Source of the DNA: Fennellomyces sp. T-0311
Taxonomy: Eukaryota > Mucoromycota > Mucoromycetes > Mucorales > Lichtheimiaceae
Assembly (NCBI GenBank): GCA_025266875.1
Contig: JALLLT010000012.1
Span: forward strand, 1-64,000
Direction: 5' to 3'
Length of the DNA: 64,000 nt
In this document: one piece after another, positions 8,674 to 19,782 of the stretch
Layout of the letters: each line of letters opens with the position of its first letter
How positions within the stretch are numbered: the first letter of the stretch is position 1
Made by a program: the position numbers and the translations under genes
The notes under the pieces: model-generated
Told to the model about the DNA's origin: nothing
The model's database searches: none
Seen by the model: only the letters and a program-made list of their open reading frames with translations

Positions 8674-9641
8674 ATGCCAGGACAACCCACTTACCTATGT
8701 GTGTGTACACGCTGCACTGGCAGAAATCGGCCAGGGAGGTATGTGACAGATGAAGTATACTGCACTCACTTTGAGCAACAAGTTGCTTAAAGACTCAGAC
8801 GTTGTAAGTCGAAAAAATGGCATAATGGAATCGATGATATTAACAGTTGTATAGTCACCCCACCTACTACCACTGCTGCCAGCCATCAGACCGAAGATCA
8901 ATCCGAACCAATGGCTATCGATGACGAAGTTGACAACGATGGTAGGTCTGAAACATATCACTGAAAGATAGCTTACTGATGAAAAATAGAAGCTTCGCCT
9001 CGAAACTGGGATGTAGGTACAGCAGAGCCTACTCTGGAGCCGCTACTGCAAGAGTCATTTGACGATCCGATCAACCAGGATCAAACCGAAATCAATGAGA
9101 ACATGGAGAACCAGTTCAATTCTTTGCTGAATGGCGATGAAGGCGATGAAGGCGATGACCAAGGTTGGTTAAGAAGATGCTAAACAAAAAAGCCGGTCAT
9201 TAATAAGAAAATATCAGATATGTCCATTGACAGCCCAGCTACTATGGTAGCCCTACGCCTAATTGATATGATCCCACAGCCATACCTTTTGGTCTTCATG
9301 TTCATCGTCCTCTTCCAGCTCCATTACCTCTCGGAGCGAACGACCGCCATCCTGATCACCTTCATCGTGACCTTGCTTGCCACCCTTCCTATCCCTGAAA
9401 GGTTCAACTTCCCTGAAACCTTGGCCACCATCTGCCATTATGTGGGCTTCGATCAATTGACGGATACACTTACCATGTATGTTGCTTGCTCCAAATGCCA
9501 TGCCATATATCTCCCGGAACGTGCTCGAGATACATACACTATCACGGCTTTGAATGGAAACGTATGCGGAAATGCCTTGTTCAAGATATCGACTGTCGGT
9601 GGGCGTTGTGTCCGTGGGGCTTCACTTAAGCAGTACGCATA

Positions 9642-10070
9642 CTGTATTTCTCATTTGACTTTGGACAGATTTGGGGGGATTATGGAAGATTAAAATAGAT
9701 ATATGGAATAATTGTGGGGGATTAGAAACCTCTGCTGTCGTACAATAGAAAGGCTACGAATCTATATGGACATACTCTGGGTGTTTGTGAATAAGTGTGC
9801 TCTGTTTTAGGGAAATGTACGACGCCGCTTTTTAGAATAAAATAATCCAGTACTATAGAAATCGTCATCTGCTTCTTGGAAGTCGTCAATCAACTTCTTG
9901 GAAATCATCATCTGTTTGTTGGAGATCATCAATTGGCTTTCTGGAATTCTGATCCAGCAGATTGGGCATCAGCTTTATAACATTACACATCAGTAACAGT
10001 CATAATGTAATTTATTCACACGAAGCAAGACATCGCCAACAACCATTACTGGAATTGTTTGGTCCTAAGG
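9642..10070 (+). repeat. Element E left terminal inverted repeat
   Basis: About 430 bp, matching the inverse of 17172-17600 with scattered substitutions. At about 9858-9945 it holds four near-copies of an AAATCATCATCTG..CTTCTTGG unit at alternating 21- and 22-base spacing, about two helical turns. This is a likely transposase-binding array. Confidence 0.88.
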
Positions 10071-10268
10071 TTACAACTTTTGTCAAAATAGTTCCCAAGG
10101 AAATCGAAGCATAATTGATAAAACAAAAGCATGAGCAAATTGTATAATATATATTGAAGCACACTTTATTCCTACTTATATTTACAATATATACTCTCTA
10201 CGCAAACATTTACCAAAAAATGATTCAGAATGTTTAACCCAACCATTACAGTCGTTACTGGTAACTGT

Positions 10269-11583
10269 TCATGCTGCTTCTTCAATTCTTGTGACAATAT
10301 CTCCTCGACCTTCAAGAGAAATATTCTTGGTGTAGGACTTCATCTTGGACCAGCATTCCTCGATTGGGTTTAAAAATGAAGAGTACAGAGGAAGAAAAAG
10401 TTCATGATGACTGGCACTTCTGATAATGTCGATGACCTCGTTACCCTTATGAATATTGCAATTGTCCATTACAATATACATATTACACATATTGAGGTGC
10501 CCGAGAGTTTTGACAACAAGCCTTATAAAATTCAAGAAGTGAATTCTCTTTGTTCCGTGAGCTACTCCAGTTGCAGTTCCTCTTCGCTTCCGACTTGGTT
10601 CTGGAATAGTTTGCTCGACTTCATCTGGTGGAGCTTGACGAGCAAGGGCAATAAGCCCACGAGAAGACATGCATCTAAGAACACTGATATTTGGACCACG
10701 ATGTGTTGGAACTGTTGTCGTTGCTGGTTCGCCTCTTTTAGCCCAACCCGTAGAACGAACTTGGTGAACCGCAAATCCACTTTCGTCGATGAAAACGCAA
10801 CGTCTACGATAGTCGTAGTCATTGGATACCACACTTCTGACGAACACTGATCTTTTGTGCAATGTCAATGGTGAATTATGACTGATTACGAGACGTTTCA
10901 AATGCTTGAGAGTAAGTTCCAAGTCATTAGCCATGTGACGGTGTATAGATGATGGATGTATCTTCAGATCTATGAAAACATAAAATAAGCATAACGAGTC
11001 GAAATAAACTAAAAGCAGGAATAATACCTGGAAACTGCTGTAAAAGCTTTCTGTGGATCTCCTTCACAGTTATCATTGCGTTATTATGAACTAGAGTGGC
11101 TATAAATTGCGAATGTTCTTGTCGGATCCGTTGATTGTTGCCCACACGAGTTTGCTTCAGCTTGTATCCCGGTAGCTTAGAAGGATCCATATTCGACTTC
11201 CTCACCATCTCGTAAGCTGATGATCTTAAGATGCCGTTCTTGATTGCTGCTGCTAAAAGTGGAACGTCCTTGTTCTTGTGACAATCCAGAAAGCGGAAAA
11301 CTTGAGATGGAAAGTATCTTGTGCTAGTCCAAGTAAAGTCATCTATGGTCGTTGTTTGGTATGGTTCTTCTTCAATGATGCTTCCTTGGCTTGTAAACAA
11401 GTCTTCGAAAGATTCTTCATATACATCTGGGATCGACGTTGCACGGTACAAAACACGAATAGCCGTATCTGCTTCTGTAACAGGACCATCTAGTTCAAAA
11501 TGTCCATGTTCGTTTTCGTTATCCAAGTGGTAAAAGGTAATAGGAGTGGTATCGTTCATAGAAGTAAAAGTAGTGTCGTTCAT
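10269..11583 (-). CDS. Element E transposase 1 (IS630/Tc1-mariner type, DDE intact)
   Basis: Two exons on the minus strand: 11583-11028 and 10969-10269, with an intron GTATTATT...TTTCATAG (phase 1), giving 418 residues. Residues about 1-85 are a variable acidic region. About 90-230 is helix-turn-helix-like (LAAAIKNGILRSSAYEMV, then TVKEIHRKLLQQFPDLKIHPSSIHRHM). The catalytic domain follows: RRRCVFIDESGF (first Asp), CNMYIVMDNCNIH (second Asp) and LNPIEECWSKM (Glu), in the order and context of Tc1/mariner-type transposases. A basic RKRRG may serve nuclear entry. It ends about 200 bp inside the left TIR and reads toward it. No stop or frameshift interrupts it, so it may be functional. Start chosen at the first of two nearby Mets; the second (MNDTTPIT) is possible. 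Confidence 0.88.
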
Positions 11584-11877
11584 AGCAAAAGCAGTAGAAG
11601 ATGTGATGTTAAGCGATGAAATTATAGATGTGGGTGCACCATTTTAAATGCCTGAATCAATTAAGCACAAAAATATGCATGATACTATCCTTACTGTAAT
11701 CGTGTCTTGGCGTAAAAACCATAGTGAGCAATAAAGCGCTGCATAGCATTAACCACAGTAAAATCATTTTTGAATTACAGTGAGCATGATATGTGTGATG
11801 GCTAATAAAAACAACTGAATTCATGTGGACATGAGCATCCAATAAAGCAATACTGCCAATTGAATCAATGTAAACAC
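11584..11877 (-). promoter_or_regulatory. Spacer between transposase 1 and the central repeat
   Basis: Probable 5' region of transposase 1, holding its promoter by position. It shows no clear TATA box or further gene; partial traces of the 45-bp repeat run into it. Confidence 0.3.
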
Positions 11878-14664
11878 AAGAACGATGACTAATATGAGAC
11901 GTAATTGGATCAGATTGAGTATGAGTAACAGTAACTATGATGGAAGCATATGAGTTACATACAACACAAGTATTGAATGATATGAATAAATCAATTGAAT
12001 CAGTGTAAACACAAAAACGGTAACAACTATGAAAAGTAATTGGATCAGACTGAGTATGAGTAATGGTAACCATGAAGGATTCATGTGAGTTAGAACAAGC
12101 ACGAGTATCGGCGGACACGATAAAGTCAATTGAATCAGTGTAAGCACAAGAATGATGACGAATATACGAAGTAATTGGATCAGAATGAGCATGAGTAACG
12201 GTAACCACAAAGGGCGCGTATTAGTTAGATCAAACACGAGTATTGGAGGACCCGATTAAGTCAATTGAATCACTGTAAACACAATAACAATAACGAATAC
12301 GAGAAGTAATTAGATCCGAATGAGCATGAGCAACGGTAACCATGAAGGATCCATGTGAGTTAGATCAAACACGAGTATCTTAAGATACGATAAAGTCAAT
12401 TGAATCAGTGTGAGCACAAGAACGATGACGAATACGAAGCGTAATTGGATCAGATTGAGTATGAGTAACGGTAACCATGATAGAAGTGTATGAGTTAGAT
12501 ACAACACGAGTATCGAACGATATGAATAATTCAGTTGAATCAATGTAAACACAAGAACAATGACGAATCCAAAACGTAATTGGATCAGGATGAGTATGAG
12601 TAACGGTAACCATAAAGGATTCATGTGAATTAGCTCAAGCACGAGTATCGGAGGACACGATAAAGTCAATTGAATCAGAGTAAACATAAGAACGATGACG
12701 AATACGAAAAGTAATTGGATCAAAGTGAGCATGAGTAACGGTAATCACAAAGGGTGTGAATGAGTTAGATTGAATATGGAGAACAAATGTCGCAATAAAG
12801 CCGAGTAAGTCAGCATGAACATGAGTAACGGTAGCCACAATAGGACTTTATGAACCTGAATGAACAATAGTAGCACAGGACACTAAAGAACTTTAGGCTG
12901 GAATGAACGCAAGTTGCACAGACCATCATGGGGGAAAAGGGAAGTACATTAATCAGAAGTGGCACAGACCATCTTGAAAGCAAAGGAGTCAAAGTGGATC
13001 ATAGTAGGATAATGGATATTGGAAACAAAAGAACCATAATAAACACGTTGTCGTACAGAGCATAAGCAACAAGAGTGAATAAAAGATTTTTAAGTTACAC
13101 ATACAGTCTTTGAAAAGCAGGTATCGAAGTAAATGGAAATGCCACAGACCATGTTTAAAACTAAAAAATATGAGAATGCAGAAGTTACACACCGTAAATA
13201 AGGTCGAGTGAAGCAGAGTAAACATATAAGACTACAAAAACTCGTGAAACAGAAGAAGCATATGTAGTACAGGTTCTGTCGTGTTTTCATTTTCTTGACG
13301 CGTTAAAGCATCAATATTAAGTTTGTACTAATTTTTTTGAACGTGCTCTGTGCCCTTTCTGGCGAAAGCGTCCTCTGCGTATATTGTACTATTTGTGTGA
13401 CTACGAACAATTTTGAACCCTTTGTGTGCAACATGATCTGTGCGAGTTTCTGTTGATCTGACCTTAATCATTCAAATATACTTTGTACTACTTTATATCA
13501 CAACAATCCAAGTGTTTCAAGCACTTTTTGCATTCCATGTGTTTCTTATGTTTCTTTTGCTCCTAATATGCACTGTGCTACACATATGCTTTATGAACCC
13601 TTTTCTCCCATGATGGTCTGTGCAACTTGCGTTCATTCCAGCCTAAAGTTCTTTAGCGTGTCCTGTGCTACTATTGTTCATTCAGGTTCATAAAGTCCTA
13701 TTGTGGCTACCGTTACTCATGTTCATGCTGACTTACTCGGCTTTATTACGACATTTGTTCTCCATATTCAATCTAACTCATTCACACCCTTTGTGATTAC
13801 CGTTACTCATGCTCACTTTGATCCAATTACTTTTCGTATTCGTCATCGTTCTTATGTTTACTCTGATTCAATTGACTTTATCGTGTCCTCCGATACTTGT
13901 GCTTGAGCTAATTCACATGAATCCTTCATGGTTACTGTCACTCATACTCATCCTGATCCAATTACGTTTTGGATTCGTCATTGTTCTTGTGTTTACATTG
14001 ATTCAACTGAATTATTCGTATCGTTCGATACTCGTGTTGTATCTAACTCATACACTTCTATCATGGCTACCGTTACTCATACTCAATCTGATCCAATTAC
14101 GCTTCGTATTCGTCATCGTTCTTGTGCTCACACTGATTCAATTGACTTTATCGTATCTTAAGATACTCGTGTTTGATCTAACTCACATGAATCCTTCATG
14201 GTTACCGTTGCTCATGCTCATTCGGATCTAATTACTTCTCGTATTCGTTATTGTTATTGTGTTTACAGTGATTCAATTGACTTAATCGGGTCCTCCAATA
14301 CTCGTGTTTGATCTAACTAATACGCGCCCTTTGTGGTTACCATTACTCATGCTCATTCTGATCCAATTACTTCGTATATTCATCATCATTCTTGTGCTTA
14401 CACTGATTCAATTGACTTTATCATGTCCACCGATACTCATGCTTGATCTAACTCACATGAATCCTTCATGGTTACCGTTACTCATACTCAGTCTGATCCA
14501 ATTACTTTTCGTAGTTGTTACCGTTTTTGTGTTTACACTGATTCAATTGATGTTATCATGTCCGCCAATACTCATGCTTGATCTAACTCATATGCTTCCA
14601 TCATAGCTACTGTTACTCATACTCAATCTGATCCAATTACGTCTCATATTAGTCATCGATTATG
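11878..14664. repeat. Central palindrome of element E on a 45-bp lattice (135-bp higher-order repeats)
   Basis: Left arm 11878-12942 and right arm 13598-14664 are near-identical inverted copies, with a 655-base loop. In the left arm the GTAACC-like mark recurs at 12066, 12201, 12336, 12471, 12606, 12741 and 12831 (steps of 135, the last 90). In the right arm the matching mark recurs at 13709, 13799, 13934, 14069, 14204, 14339, 14474 and 14609. Each 135-bp unit is three diverged 45-bp subunits sharing a TGATCYAATTRAC-like core. In the loop, CTGTGC recurs at 13348, 13438, 13573, 13618 and 13663, all multiples of 45 apart. Unit lengths stay divisible by three, so long frames with a 15-residue period (LTLIQL-like, or THTHSDPI-like) are open across parts of it. 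Stops in some units argue against one long protein. Transcription would give a 1-kb hairpin RNA. Confidence 0.93.
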
Positions 14665-14802
14665 TGTTAATTCCAAGCCTACTGTGCTATCCGTGAGATG
14701 TACTACGTTCTGCTGCGAAAGTTTTTACAGCTATTGGTTCTTGACTACACTGGAGTGTTATCTAAGTGCATGAGCTTTTCGCGTAACATTGAGTACTTTA
14801 CA

Positions 14803-14816
14803 GATATATAAAAAGG
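14803..14816 (+). promoter_or_regulatory. TATA box of the small element E gene
   Basis: GATATATAAAAAGG lies about 50 bases upstream of the ATG at 14865, just outside the right palindrome arm. The spacing fits a short leader. Transcription from here would run away from the palindrome. Confidence 0.55.
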
Positions 14817-14864
14817 AAGTGATTGAAAGTGTGGTGGATTTAATCAACATAACGAGATAACAAA

Positions 14865-15568
14865 ATGAGCACTAATGGAAACACAAAGTACACCGTCAAG
14901 AAGAGCAAGAGTAGCAAGGGGAGCATAAAGAATAAGGCAACCATGCGGGTTGTTAAGAAAACGTCATCGAAAAAGACCAACCAAAGTATATATTTAATGA
15001 ATTGCAGATAGTTTATACAATATTAACATCAATTATCTACGTAATAGTCATGGATGCAGCGATGGAATCCTACTTTAAGGAGAAAGACATCTAGGTGAAT
15101 GAAATGTCCGAGTACGGCATTGCTGGATTCGAGACAGAGCATGAAATGGAGCAGTTCGACAACCTATTGGCCACCACCCAGCATCGAAAGCGCGCAATCA
15201 TTACAGAGACAATCCAGAGTAGGGTTTTGCGCATGTACAACCCTGCAAGGAATACATACCGACAAGTTGCCCAACGTGTCAAGATTTCGCCTGCCACTGC
15301 CAGGTGTATTGTTCTCAACGATATCCAGAAGTATATGAAGGACCAAAGGAGGGAAATGGACTTGGAAATAGCAGCAACAACAGCAGCAAGGATAGCAGCA
15401 GCTGAATCAGAGAGATTAATGTCGCGTGGCGAAGGTATGGACTGCGTCGATACAGAAGATGAAAGCGACGACATGGGCTGCAACGATATGGAAGACGCAG
15501 CAAAGGTATTCGAGGGTTCGACATCGGAGTCGGATGAGCTTCAGGATTTGGCAAAGATGCAATTGTAG
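14865..15568 (+). pseudogene. Small basic/acidic protein of element E with HTH-like region; one in-frame TAG
   Basis: Exon 1 (14865-14985) encodes a Lys/Ser-rich start (MSTNGNTKYTVKKSKSSKG). An intron GTATATAT...TAACATC...AATAG ends at 15047. Exon 2 (15048-15568) continues in frame (IMDAAMESYFKEKDI), meets a single TAG at 15092-15094, and continues (NEMSEYGIAGFETEH) to 15568. Without the TAG the product would be about 213 residues. The middle part RNTYRQVAQRVKISPATARCI looks like a helix-turn-helix. An Ala/Glu-rich helix and an acidic tail (DTEDESDDMG) follow. CAG to TAG by one change would explain the stop; translation from the Met at 15104 or stop readthrough are alternatives. I do not recognise a family. 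Its place between the palindrome and transposase 2 suggests an accessory DNA-binding or regulatory role. Confidence 0.6.
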
Positions 15569-15854
15569 TTTACCGAAATTGTTTTGTTTACGAGTTAAAC
15601 ATAATTCATAGCTAATACATATGATTTATCTCACCATATTCTTTACCGTAGCAAGTGTCGTAAATTGCGATTTCCTTCACGTGCCATACTGGTACAACAG
15701 TCTATTACCCGATTAAAAGAAAGTGTGTACAGTTTGTGGCACATGACCTATTGTCAAGCAATCTCTGGATAATATATAAGAGTGCTTCTGTTTCTTATGT
15801 TTTTTAACTTTCTTGTGTCTTTTAATTCTATTTTCTTATTCAATTTTCAATACC
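15569..15854 (+). promoter_or_regulatory. Promoter and CT-rich leader of transposase 2
   Basis: An AATATATAAGAG box lies at about 15771. It is followed by a long T/C-rich stretch up to the ATG at 15855, the pattern seen before other starts in this window. Confidence 0.5.
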
Positions 15855-17127
15855 ATGGAGCACGCTGTATACTATTATGCACTGGGTGATGGCTATTACC
15901 GTGAAACACCGATTCAAGCAATGGAAGATGTTGTTTCTGATATTGTTTCTCAATCTGAGCCCAGTAACCAGGATTCAGTTTTAAGTGGCTCATACGAAAC
16001 GACCAAGCAGCAAGAATTGATTTGGGGTCCCACTCTTTACCAACGTGATGACGTTTCCAAATTTGTGAACTTGCGCACGATCAAAGGCATGAACATACAT
16101 AGAGCAGCAAAGGATGCAAAAATTGGTAAATCAAGAGCCTATCAGTTTGATCTCGAACGACGACAGAATCCAGAAGTTCTCCTGGGTGTCCGTGTGAAAG
16201 GGTATCGGTCAAAATCAGCGAAACTGACTGATGAGCAAGTCAATTATCTTGTCACTTTGGTCAGCAAGCAAAATCCCTATTTTACGATGACTGCAGTAAT
16301 GGAAGATTTTAATGCAAAGTTCAAAGGTTTGTAAGGCAGTCGCTATAGCTTTCGCTGTTCTATTACTAACATCACTTGTAGATAGCTCTGTAAGCAAGAC
16401 CATGGTCCAAACTTTCATCAAAACGAATCTTGCTTTCAGGCTTACGATACCACCACTGGATCAAGAAGAGCTACTCGACAACAATGCATTCAGAAAGCTA
16501 GTGGATTATCTCGCACAAAAAGGTTTCGATTACAACAAAAATTGTGCATTCATTGACAAGTGCAGGATTTACAAGACTGGCCTTAACCCTGTGTCTCAAT
16601 TACCCAAAAGAGTTCCTGCTGGTAACACTTTTCCGTTTGATGTCTTTTGCTGCATTACGATTCAAGGACTCCATGCAATTTCGCAGCAAGGAATGCTCTC
16701 TGATTGCAAGAAAAAGGCTCGGAATGTTCAGAAGTTGCTCACGGCACACAAGAAAACCATCTGGACCTCAGCTCATCATTTTCTTCTGTTTGTGATGAAT
16801 CTGGTCAAGTTTTTCAAGGATTCCGAAGCTACCAGGATAGCAATCATCATGGAAGATACAGATATGCACCGCAGCGAATTGGTGGTCAAGGTGATCAAGG
16901 ATGCTGGCTTCTACCCAGTATATATCCCCAGTAGCTTAGTATCGTTGAATCCAGCCAAATCCATGTGGAGCAGTCTCATTCATCGCGTAAGAGTAAACGC
17001 TATATCGGAAGATGACGATTTGGCAAATCGGATTACTGAGGCATCCAGGACCATCACTAAAAGAGAATGCGAAGAATGGATATCACAATCAAGCTCTTTG
17101 CTCAAGATCTACGACGCACAGATCTAA
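15855..17127 (+). CDS. Element E transposase 2 (homologue with degenerate catalytic residues)
   Basis: Exons 15855-16326 and 16382-17127, joined by an intron at the same place and phase (1) as in transposase 1; 405 residues. The N-terminal half has the same layout (LIWGPTLYQRDDVSKFV, HRAAKDAKIGKSRAYQF, YFTMTAVMEDFNAKFKD). The catalytic blocks align by position but are altered: CAFIDKCRIY keeps the first Asp, IAIIMEDTDMH has Glu where transposase 1 has the second Asp (VMDNCNIH), and LNPAKSMWSSL has Lys where the Glu belongs (NPIEECW). The frame is nevertheless fully open, with a good promoter and leader. Either it is recently dead, or it is a maintained non-catalytic partner such as a repressor or a TIR-binding subunit. 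I favour the second because no stop or frameshift has accumulated. Confidence 0.85.
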
Positions 17128-17171
17128 AATTTCAGTTTCTACAATAGTGTAGTATTTTAATAAAAGTGGTA

Positions 17172-17600
17172 ACTACGCACCAAGCAGTTCCAGTAATGGT
17201 TGTTGGCAATGTCTCGCTTTATGTGAATAAATTACATTATGACTGTTGCTGATGTGTAATGTTATAAAGCTAATGCCCAATCTGCTGGATCAGAATTCCA
17301 AAAAGCCAATTGATGATCTTCAACAAACAGATGATGATTTCCAAGAAGTTGATTGATGACTTCCAAGAAGCAGATGACGATTTCCATAGCGCTGGATTAT
17401 TTTTTCTAAAAAGCGGCGTCGTACATTTCCCTAAAACAGAGCACAATTATTCACAAACACCCAGAGTATGTCCATATAGATCCGTAGCCTTTCCATTGTA
17501 CGACAGCAGAGGTTTCTAATCCCCCACAATTATTCCATATATCTATTTTTATCTTCCATAATCCCCCCCAAATCTGTCCAAAGTCAAACGAGAAATACAG
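17172..17600 (-). repeat. Element E right terminal inverted repeat
   Basis: Inverse counterpart of 9642-10070 with the same 21-22-base repeat array (about 17300-17385). It begins about 45 bases after the transposase 2 stop. Confidence 0.88.
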
Positions 17601-19782
17601 TACTACAAGCTAGGGCACAGCCTCAAAAGGCTTTTCATGCGCGACGGTTTTGAGGACAAGATCATCGAATGGAGACAGGATCTCTTCAATGGCACCGAGT
17701 TTTGCGACATTTACCATGGTTTGAAATGGAACAGGCTTAAAGATGCAAACCGCATTCCTTTTGTTGCTGACGATCACTCATTGATGCTCACGCTCAATGT
17801 CGACTGGTTCGCACCTTTTGACAGCGGTTACTCTTGCGACGCTATATACCTTACGGTCAATAACCTACCTCGTGCGGATCGATTCAAAACGGAAAACGTC
17901 ATCCTTGTGGGTGTCATGCCTGAGCCACGCGAACCAAAGACCTACGAAATGAATAATTATTTGGAGCCTCTCGTGGATGATCTTCTTGCCTTCTATGCGG
18001 GTGTTCATATGAAAACTTTCAAGTACCCAAGAGAAACCATGGTATGTGCCGCTCTGTTGAATGTCACTTGCGATATCCCGGCCAGCCATAAGGTGTGCGG
18101 CTTCACGGCACATTTCAGTACACGTGCTTGCAATAAGTGCAACCGCGAGTTTGTCACCAATCAGGAGACTGGCAATATGGTCTACGCCGGTACGGACATT
18201 CCCCACACAAGCTTGCGAACCAAACGAAGCAATCGTATTGCAGTCGACAATTGGAGAAACGCAACGACCCAGGCTGAGCGGCAAAGACTTGAACGAGAGC
18301 ATGGCACCCGCTGGTCACAACTTCACAGGCTTAGCTACTTTGACCTAGTACGATGCACCATAATCGACCCTATGCACAACCTTTTCCTTGGCACAGCTGC
18401 TCGTACGGTCAAAATCTGGAGGACCCGGGGCGTCTTCACGGAATCGGTGCTCAAGAATATGCAAGAGATTACTGATCGTGTTGTGTTGCCCTCTGGGATG
18501 CTGACACTTCAGCACAAGATCGAGCGAAAATTTGGCTTTATGACGGTGGATGATTGGAAGGTGTGGACCTTGGTGTACTCCCCTTACGTGCTCCATGACG
18601 TTTTGCTCCCAGACTATTACGAACACTGGATGCTGTTTGTCGACGCCTGTCGATTGTTGGCGCAAACGAGGATCACGTATGACAATATCGCCGACGCACA
18701 CCAGAAACTTGTCGAATTTGTAGACAACTGTGTGATGTTATATGATGATTCCATTGTGACGCCCAACATGCACCTCCATCTCCACCTCCGCGAAGTTCTG
18801 CAAGACTTTGGCCCCATCTATGCGTTCTGGTTGTTCAGTTTCGAGAGATACAATGGGTATATGAAGGATGCTGATACCAACCAGAAGGATTGCTTCGAGG
18901 TCACGTTTATAAAGCGATTCATTGAAAAGACTGGTGCCATTGATTTCGTTCAGGTCAAGGCTGCTCGCTTTGGGAGGAATTTGGCCAAGTTCAGGATGCT
19001 GCTACAGATTGCTGGACAATCTTCTCGTCACGTACTGCAGCAGGGTCCAAGTACCTTTGATTATGAAACGTTCATCAGCTACTCTATGAATCCAAGTCTA
19101 TCCACCAATGTCACTGGATCTGAGCCGCTGCCCCCCTCGACTGTGATCACCATGAGCGATGGCGTTGACGCAAACCTTAGCGAAGAACACCACGCACACT
19201 TGCTTGAGTACTATGCATATACGTATGGTATGGCTGTTTTGCCTGCGAGTGACGGGATTCCAGCTCATGCGTTTGTCAAGCGGAAGGCTGAGAAGTTTCA
19301 GACGATTGAAATCTTTGGGTAAACATATCGATCAGCAGCTGCAGCATCCTCGCACGGATCCTACATTCAGGTTGTCTATTGGCGCGGTGAGCAACCTGGC
19401 GCGTACACCGGCCGTGTGCAGTATTACTTCAAGCATCCACTGGTTGTCAATGGCACATCGGTCATCCACCGTCTCGTTTTCATTCGTTGGTACTGCACCG
19501 TACCGGAATCCCACCAGCGATTCACTTTAGGTGGCCTTGAAGAATGGCTATGGCAATTCACAGATGAACGCTATGATTGTATCATACCTGTTCACCGCAT
19601 CCACTCACAAGTCGCTGTTGTTGCTCATGGGCCGCAAGATGACGTGCAAACAGCCAGGATGGTTGTGATTCCGTTGCCAAAACGGATTACTGTTTAAGAA
19701 AATAAAAAATTGTTCTTGACAAAGGTCCAAAACTTTACTCAAAAATTGGCTACTAAAAGAAGCAGGAAAAAAAAGGCTTTTA

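Follow-up and report, generated by a model that had tools for sequence, protein, structure and literature searches.

A 64,000-nucleotide stretch of the fungus Fennellomyces sp. T-0311 (Mucorales, Lichtheimiaceae; contig JALLLT010000012.1, positions 1 to 64,000 of the forward strand; hereafter the window) contains a 7,959-bp transposon at positions 9642-17600, which we call element E. Judged from sequence, E probably belongs to a Tc1/mariner (IS630-type) lineage whose transposase is made in two parts, one catalytic (the left protein, L) and one non-catalytic (the right protein, R). We hold a bolder reading with slightly less than even confidence: that this is a long-lived lineage of eukaryotic DNA transposons that cannot move without a heteromeric transposase made of a live and a dead paralog, both carried by the same element and co-diversifying over several families, and thus a mobile counterpart of the Pgm/PgmL system. 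The dead copy probably has a necessary job, because it is strictly preserved and the arrangement is common to several distinct families.

Borders and empty site

Element E is flanked by TA at 9640-9641 and 17601-17602 and bounded by terminal inverted repeats (TIRs) at 9642-10090 (plus strand) and 17152-17600 (minus strand). The left TIR starts with CTGTATTTCTC. The two repeats are 94.2% identical over the 449 bp compared; the first-pass annotation of this DNA had recognized them and given their length as 430 bp. When E is excised together with one TA, a 713-amino-acid Tnp2 frame is regained, with 45% identity across the junction to a second Tnp2 in the window (29761-27671). In the source genome (45.6 Mb in 182 contigs; labels such as C1, C24, and C130 denote these contigs, and C24 is the window copy), the joined 400 bp was found uninterrupted and nearly whole at nine other CACTA copies, at 90–96% identity and with a single TA, and two further shorter matches (89% and 93%) likewise cross the junction. 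Because the Tnp2 frame is restored and uninterrupted empty-site copies exist, the borders first proposed for E, and its TA duplication, are secure at the DNA level. These observations support the description of E as one mobile element with exact borders, inserted at TA and carrying a third gene beside its two homologous transposases. Its location inside a CACTA copy that has empty relatives elsewhere shows past mobility only.

A live and a dead transposase

The two transposases read outward and are homologous, as originally annotated, and both match Pfam DDE_3; what was described as a pair of transposases turns out to have a catalytic triad in the left protein only. The left gene runs from 11583 to 10269 on the minus strand. 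Exon 1 (11028-11583) encodes the N-terminal, presumed DNA-binding part, and a predicted GT..AG intron (10970-11027; 57-59 nt in four copies) separates it from exon 2 (10269-10969), which encodes the RNase H domain with the D-D-E triad (DDE_3, 2.8e-24). The spliced protein is 418-428 amino acids long across the E copies, and its closest database match is a Lichtheimia protein with 39% identity. The triad is intact in 4/4 E copies, with 34 residues between the second D and the E (DD34E), and D-D-E was also found in the left proteins of elements on C32, C165, C4, and C177. A structural model of L exon 2 (pLDDT 79) had Sleeping Beauty (5cr4) as its best Foldseek match, followed by SETMAR or Mos1.

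The right gene (15855-17127, plus strand) consists of exon 1 (15855-16326), whose N-terminal product can be aligned with the left protein, a predicted intron (16327-16381) at a position equivalent to that of the left gene, and exon 2 (16382-17127), which encodes a predicted RNase H fold that lacks catalytic residues two and three (DDE_3, 1.1e-8). The protein has 405 amino acids in C24, 402 in C130, and 403 in C1, and is broken by a stop in C166. L and R of the C130 copy are 23% identical by blastp (E = 8e-27) and alignable over most of their length. We compared the triad positions in a 31-row alignment, in which 19 of the 24 non-R rows were hand-picked from 120 proteins listed. The second D and the third residue, E, were absent from all seven R rows (families or subfamilies), which have E or P at the second position and K, R, Y, or I at the third, with the first D invariant. 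D-D-E was present in 23 of the non-R rows, and the 24th (P0061) is unaligned at the first D. With its triad incomplete, R looks catalytically dead. The model of R exon 2 (pLDDT 83) also had Sleeping Beauty 5cr4 as its best match (7.9e-9), then SETMAR or Mos1, which supports retention of the Tc1/mariner RNase H fold. DNA binding by R is presumed from its alignment with L.

Copies of E and related families

The TIR of E had 18 matches genome-wide, the window copy's two among them. The first-pass annotation had proposed a search for the TIR and both transposases, and this search recovered three more complete, co-linear, TA-flanked copies of E, on C130 (8,227 bp), C1 (8,352 bp), and C166 (7,016 bp), as well as three further two-transposase families. 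Chance therefore does not account for the layout of E. Long aligned blocks among the E copies are ~94-97% identical, satellite size differences aside, and the copies differ in length mainly in the satellite. TA abuts both ends of 4/4 full copies and 9/9 of the single ends examined. A fifth copy on C15 (L024:1094-9195) holds an inserted stretch of ~8 kb in its right TIR, and no left-type gene was found in it among the left-protein matches listed.

Searches of the source genome with the right and the left protein each gave at least 106 matches. Four of the elements recovered in the other families are those on C32 (6,840 bp; TIRs of ~400 bp at 92%), C177 (6,875 bp; TIRs at 99.5%), C165 (5,232 bp; TIRs of 200 bp at 98.5%), and C4 (6,023 bp; TIRs of 216 bp at 99%). 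Each carries a live left-type and an apparently dead right-type transposase reading outward, with TA at both ends, and the layout of C177 matches that of C32 and E. Altogether, we count ten complete two-transposase elements in four families, with C32 and C177 taken as one family. Eight were read end to end, with TIRs of 200-450 bp that are 92-99.5% identical within an element, and the two on C149 and C178 were called complete from the coordinates of their TIRs and both proteins rather than from their sequence.

Selection and phylogeny

The ratio of nonsynonymous to synonymous substitution rates (dN/dS) for R was 0.133-0.138 when E copies were compared with C27 (Fisher p 9e-40 in the C130/C27 comparison), 0.104 for C32 and C177 (p 3e-49), 0.209 for C165 and C4 (where a dS of 1.86 is close to saturation), and 0.247 for C4 and a close copy of it located at C177:37 kb. 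It was 0.06-0.16 in each of four protein regions in the C130/C27 and C32/C177 comparisons. Going by these codon comparisons, R is under strong purifying selection between subfamilies. For L, dN/dS between C32 and C177 was 0.162 (0.157 for exon 2 alone), so constraint on R is at least as strong as that on L in the sole pair for which the two were compared.

A tree of 27 proteins (401 columns, LG+F+G4) was built after P0005, P0006, P0031, and P0061 had been left out for being short or incomplete; it does not include the left protein of C177. The seven R proteins form one clade (ultrafast bootstrap 100), which splits into (E,C27),(C32,C177) and (C165,C4,C117). The four left proteins are set apart from the others (96), with E joined to C32 (99) and C165 to C4 (100), and the L and R trees have in common the main split of (E,C32) from (C165,C4). 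R groups, on long branches and with a support of 85, with C151 and with proteins from Lichtheimia, Circinella, and Parasitella. C151 (L052:881-2830) is a single-gene Tc1-like element of 1.95 kb with 203-bp TIRs, TA ends, and a live triad. This placement points, tentatively, to capture of R from another Tc1-like lineage and not to an origin as a copy of L.

Inverted satellite, terminal arrays, and third gene

Between the two transposase genes of E lies an inverted satellite made of a left arm of about seven 135-bp units (11857-12770, plus strand), a central spacer (12771-13770) whose outer parts also pair as an inverted repeat, and a right arm that is an inverted copy of the left (13771-14657, minus strand). 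The arms flank a centre of ~1 kb, share a gap-free core of 1,011 nt that is 97% complementary at a distance of 774 nt, and, in mirror orientation, stop short of the two start codons by 274 bp and 208 bp. Units longer than 90 bp, counted by blast in the left/right arm, number 7/6 in C24, 7/8 in C130, 8/7 in C1, and 4/2 in C166. The satellite was a named part of the architecture in the first-pass annotation, and it is present in E, C32, and C177; we reject it as a defining part, since none was found on reading C165 and C4. The E and C32 satellites are no more similar than expected by chance, and those of C32 and C177 are ~69% alike. A captured host repeat was also rejected as its source: there were 40 matches, all in E copies, at C4:17.0-18.6 kb, or on C172, where the C4 matches adjoin a left-type gene 63% identical to that of E, and the one short C172 match adjoins an E-like third gene. 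A coding satellite was rejected for want of a continuous long frame in C32, the only element checked for this.

The two arms of one copy are 90.0-95.3% alike in C24, C130, and C166, and 90.6% alike in C32. In C1 they are 98.8% alike over 1.4 kb, and the TIRs of this copy share variants not seen in other E copies; in C177 the arms are 99.2% alike. These likenesses point to occasional arm-to-arm gene conversion, for which C1 and C177 are the best examples. The TIRs of E, C32, and C177 contain 21-23-bp tandem arrays, which in the window copy are a 22-bp array at 9858-9910 in the left TIR and a 21-bp array at 17296-17386 in the right; none was found in C165 or C4. By analogy with what is reported for Galileo, these arrays are plausibly transposase binding sites.

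The third small gene listed for E in the first-pass annotation (14865-15568, plus strand) is there, with predicted exons at 14865-14985 and 15048-15568, but carries an in-frame TAG after codon 55 in the window copy; its 213 codons are open in the other three full E copies. Among E copies its dN/dS is 0.07-0.34. A small open frame just upstream of R on the same strand was seen in all five element types read (E, C32, C177, C165, and C4). Those of C177 (3e-8) and C32 (2e-4) are related to the E version, and these three proteins look like helix-turn-helix proteins, although Pfam gave only sub-threshold helix-turn-helix matches for E (HTH_23 in exon 2, 0.0035) and C32, and no relevant match for C165 and C4. 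The C4 element has an additional open reading frame (ORF) on the minus strand (L063:471-941, ~C4:34.5-35.0 kb) with a cysteine pattern that is Zn2Cys6-like by eye, for which Pfam returned nothing.

Proposed mechanism and alternatives

In a two-part transposase, L would cut and join at TA. R would bind the ends, L, or both, and assemble, position, or control the cutting complex, much as the non-catalytic PgmL proteins act for Pgm in Paramecium; such a role would draw on the RNase H scaffold that R appears to have kept and on its alignment with L along the presumed DNA-binding part. The third protein may be a DNA-binding accessory. Where present, the inverted satellite would place mirrored repeats immediately upstream of each of the two divergent transcription units, with its arms possibly kept alike by occasional gene conversion from one to the other.

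Several observations weigh against this proposal. In a manual tally of the matches listed, there were ~34 R-type loci, fragments included, and only 12 form an outward-reading pair with a live-type partner (C24, C130, C1, C166, C32, C177, C165, C149, C180, C4, C178, and C57). Many of the partnerless loci are truncated or at contig ends; at C163 and C171 (35.2 kb) the nearest left-type gene is on the wrong strand, and L-only loci exist too. C13 has a complete-looking R frame (C13:981909-983240, 445 codons open) with no L found nearby. This gene belongs to the C165 family (69-77% identical), has a weak TIR match beside it, and is possibly part of a truncated element or a host-recruited gene. R-type proteins were encountered in the source genome only: phmmer with the C130 right protein found nothing at E<=1, and a search of public proteins with an R-family profile gave one match, P0121 (Fennellomyces sp. 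T-0311), which is evidently the host's own and reads the same as the C171 R gene.

The protein-level and rate evidence has weak points of its own. The formation of an L-R complex is proposed by analogy. The only DNA-binding match of L in Pfam (HTH_32, 0.022) is sub-threshold and extends into exon 2, and the Pfam scan of R gave no DNA-binding domain match of its own. The structure model of R was built from an alignment of mostly live homologues, so its fold is not supported independently of its live relatives. All dN/dS values are simple NG86 estimates, and the one comparison of constraint on L and R (C32/C177) involves an L exon 1 that is near saturation (dS 1.96). Pairwise values within E copies are higher, at 0.22-0.65 for R and 0.18-0.56 for L, and include decay after insertion. 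Clear arm conversion was seen only in C1 among the four E copies, and in C24, C130, and C166 the identity between the two TIRs of one copy (94.2-96.0%) is mostly lower than that between same-side TIRs of different copies (96.0-98.7%). Sequence relatedness of the third gene covers E, C177, and C32, with the C165 and C4 versions alike each other by eye only.

The main rival, which we consider unlikely, is that R is a self-encoded regulator, a dead transposase that binds the TIRs or L and limits transposition as a dominant-negative or repressor, and persists because copies that jump too often are harmful to the host. Mariner-type enzymes are known to be poisoned by inactive subunits, R retains the scaffold without the triad and most of it can be aligned with L, and few copies of each family were found, all of which this explanation would accommodate. 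A repressor should be dispensable to a single copy and weaker selection on it would therefore be expected, whereas the one L/R comparison available (R 0.104, L 0.162) shows R at least as constrained as L, and the constraint on R extends over its whole length. We give a poor chance to the idea that R was repurposed as a DNA-binding protein outside transposition, for example one that uses the satellite or TIR arrays to act on the element's transcription. The mirrored satellite arms of E, 274 bp and 208 bp from the start codons, and the 21-23-bp TIR arrays of E, C32, and C177 would fit such a role, but C165 and C4 keep R with neither satellite nor TIR array, and the entire RNase H domain is under constraint.

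Two other explanations seem far less probable. R might still cut DNA through a rearranged active site, given that its first D is invariant in 7/7 rows and that an E or D occupies or adjoins the second position in the families of E, C32, and C165; this is very improbable, with E or P at the second position itself and K, R, Y, or I in place of the third acidic residue. We assign the lowest probability of all to a one-off joining of two adjacent insertions, each with one transposase, that left R as a decaying passenger, the alternative that the first-pass annotation had set against its own reading. As a recent event it is refuted: E is present in four copies, complete two-transposase elements occur in three other families, bringing the complete elements to ten, and the R proteins form a single clade. 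R as a decaying passenger is rejected by its dN/dS of 0.10-0.14 between subfamilies. The arrangement may plausibly have originated in an ancient capture or fusion, since R has the live, ordinary single-gene C151 among its near relatives.

Relation to known systems

Tc1/mariner-type transposases are the textbook case of a machine made of a single protein, and they are in wide use as tools. Element E shares with this group a TA target, TIRs, and, in its left protein, a DD34E transposase with an RNase H fold; its right protein lacks DD34E. The N-terminal helix-turn-helix of the group has a sub-threshold match in the left protein (HTH_32, 0.022) and no such match in the right. CAGT-type ends are common to the ordinary Tc1/mariner element C151 and to C32, C165, and C4. 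Ordinary members are short and have one gene, whereas the elements described here have a dead second transposase and a third gene, and are 5.2-8.4 kb long with TIRs of 200-450 bp.

The first-pass annotation had described Tc1/mariner elements as normally single-gene, to which there are printed exceptions in ciliates. TBE, Tec, Sardine, Thon, and Anchois are multi-gene Tc1/mariner elements (PMC4724952, PMC3464196). Three ORFs of TBE are under purifying selection (PMC4724952, PMC12242761), and accessory proteins have been called surprising for Tc1/mariner (PMC12242761). Sardine is ~6.7 kb long with 425-bp TIRs that are themselves palindromic, and TBE has a ~200-bp tandem-repeat region and duplicates ANT (PMC4724952, PMC3464196). 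In place of the telomeric-repeat TIRs and ANT duplication of TBE-type elements, the TIR of E begins CTGTATTTC and its insertion duplicates TA. The extra ORFs of the ciliate elements encode a 22-kD protein, a zinc-finger/kinase protein, a tyrosine recombinase, or hypothetical proteins, and are not described in the passages surveyed as a second DDE transposase. Pfam found no tyrosine recombinase gene, a trait of Tec and Sardine, among the three E gene models.

A functional parallel in print is Pgm in Paramecium, a catalytic transposase with five groups of PgmL paralogs that have no complete triad; each group is required for efficient excision, and the paralogs are needed for TA-bounded excision to be efficient and accurate (PMC6143343). 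R resembles the PgmL proteins as a non-catalytic paralog under selection, an analogy of function and not of kinship; Pgm and PgmL are domesticated host genes of the PiggyBac superfamily, not carried in a mobile element (PMC6143343). Galileo and Foldback elements also have long TIRs with internal tandem repeats, which in Galileo are multiple transposase binding sites (PMC3688188, PMC3573991). They differ in belonging to the P-element superfamily, while the large array of E is internal, between divergent genes, and its TIR array is short; Pfam found DDE_3 and no THAP domain or P-element-type transposase in the E proteins. KolobokP (PMC9587614) and RAG1L/RAG2L (PMC7204232) are eukaryotic DNA transposons that pair a transposase with a second protein, but instead of a paralog of the transposase, this partner is a homing endonuclease or RAG2-like. 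No mobile element pairing a live with a dead transposase was described in the titles, abstract portions, and passages surveyed.

If the two-part reading of E is right, Tc1/mariner machines are able to turn heteromeric without losing their mobility, a change otherwise seen, in the excerpts surveyed, only after domestication in ciliates. The lineage would make it testable how dead transposases acquire necessary roles, with extra genes that can be omitted singly. E-type elements also offer large inverted satellite arms that are alike within single transposons and diverge between families.

Other observations in the window

Among the 102 private substitutions in the window copy of E, 75 are C-to-T or G-to-A and 48 are CpG transitions, which suggests methylated CpG or a related process behind the C-to-T/G-to-A decay of this copy. 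Elsewhere in the window, positions 1851-1924 match the TIR region of the C165 family at 86%, and are perhaps a remnant of a second two-transposase family.

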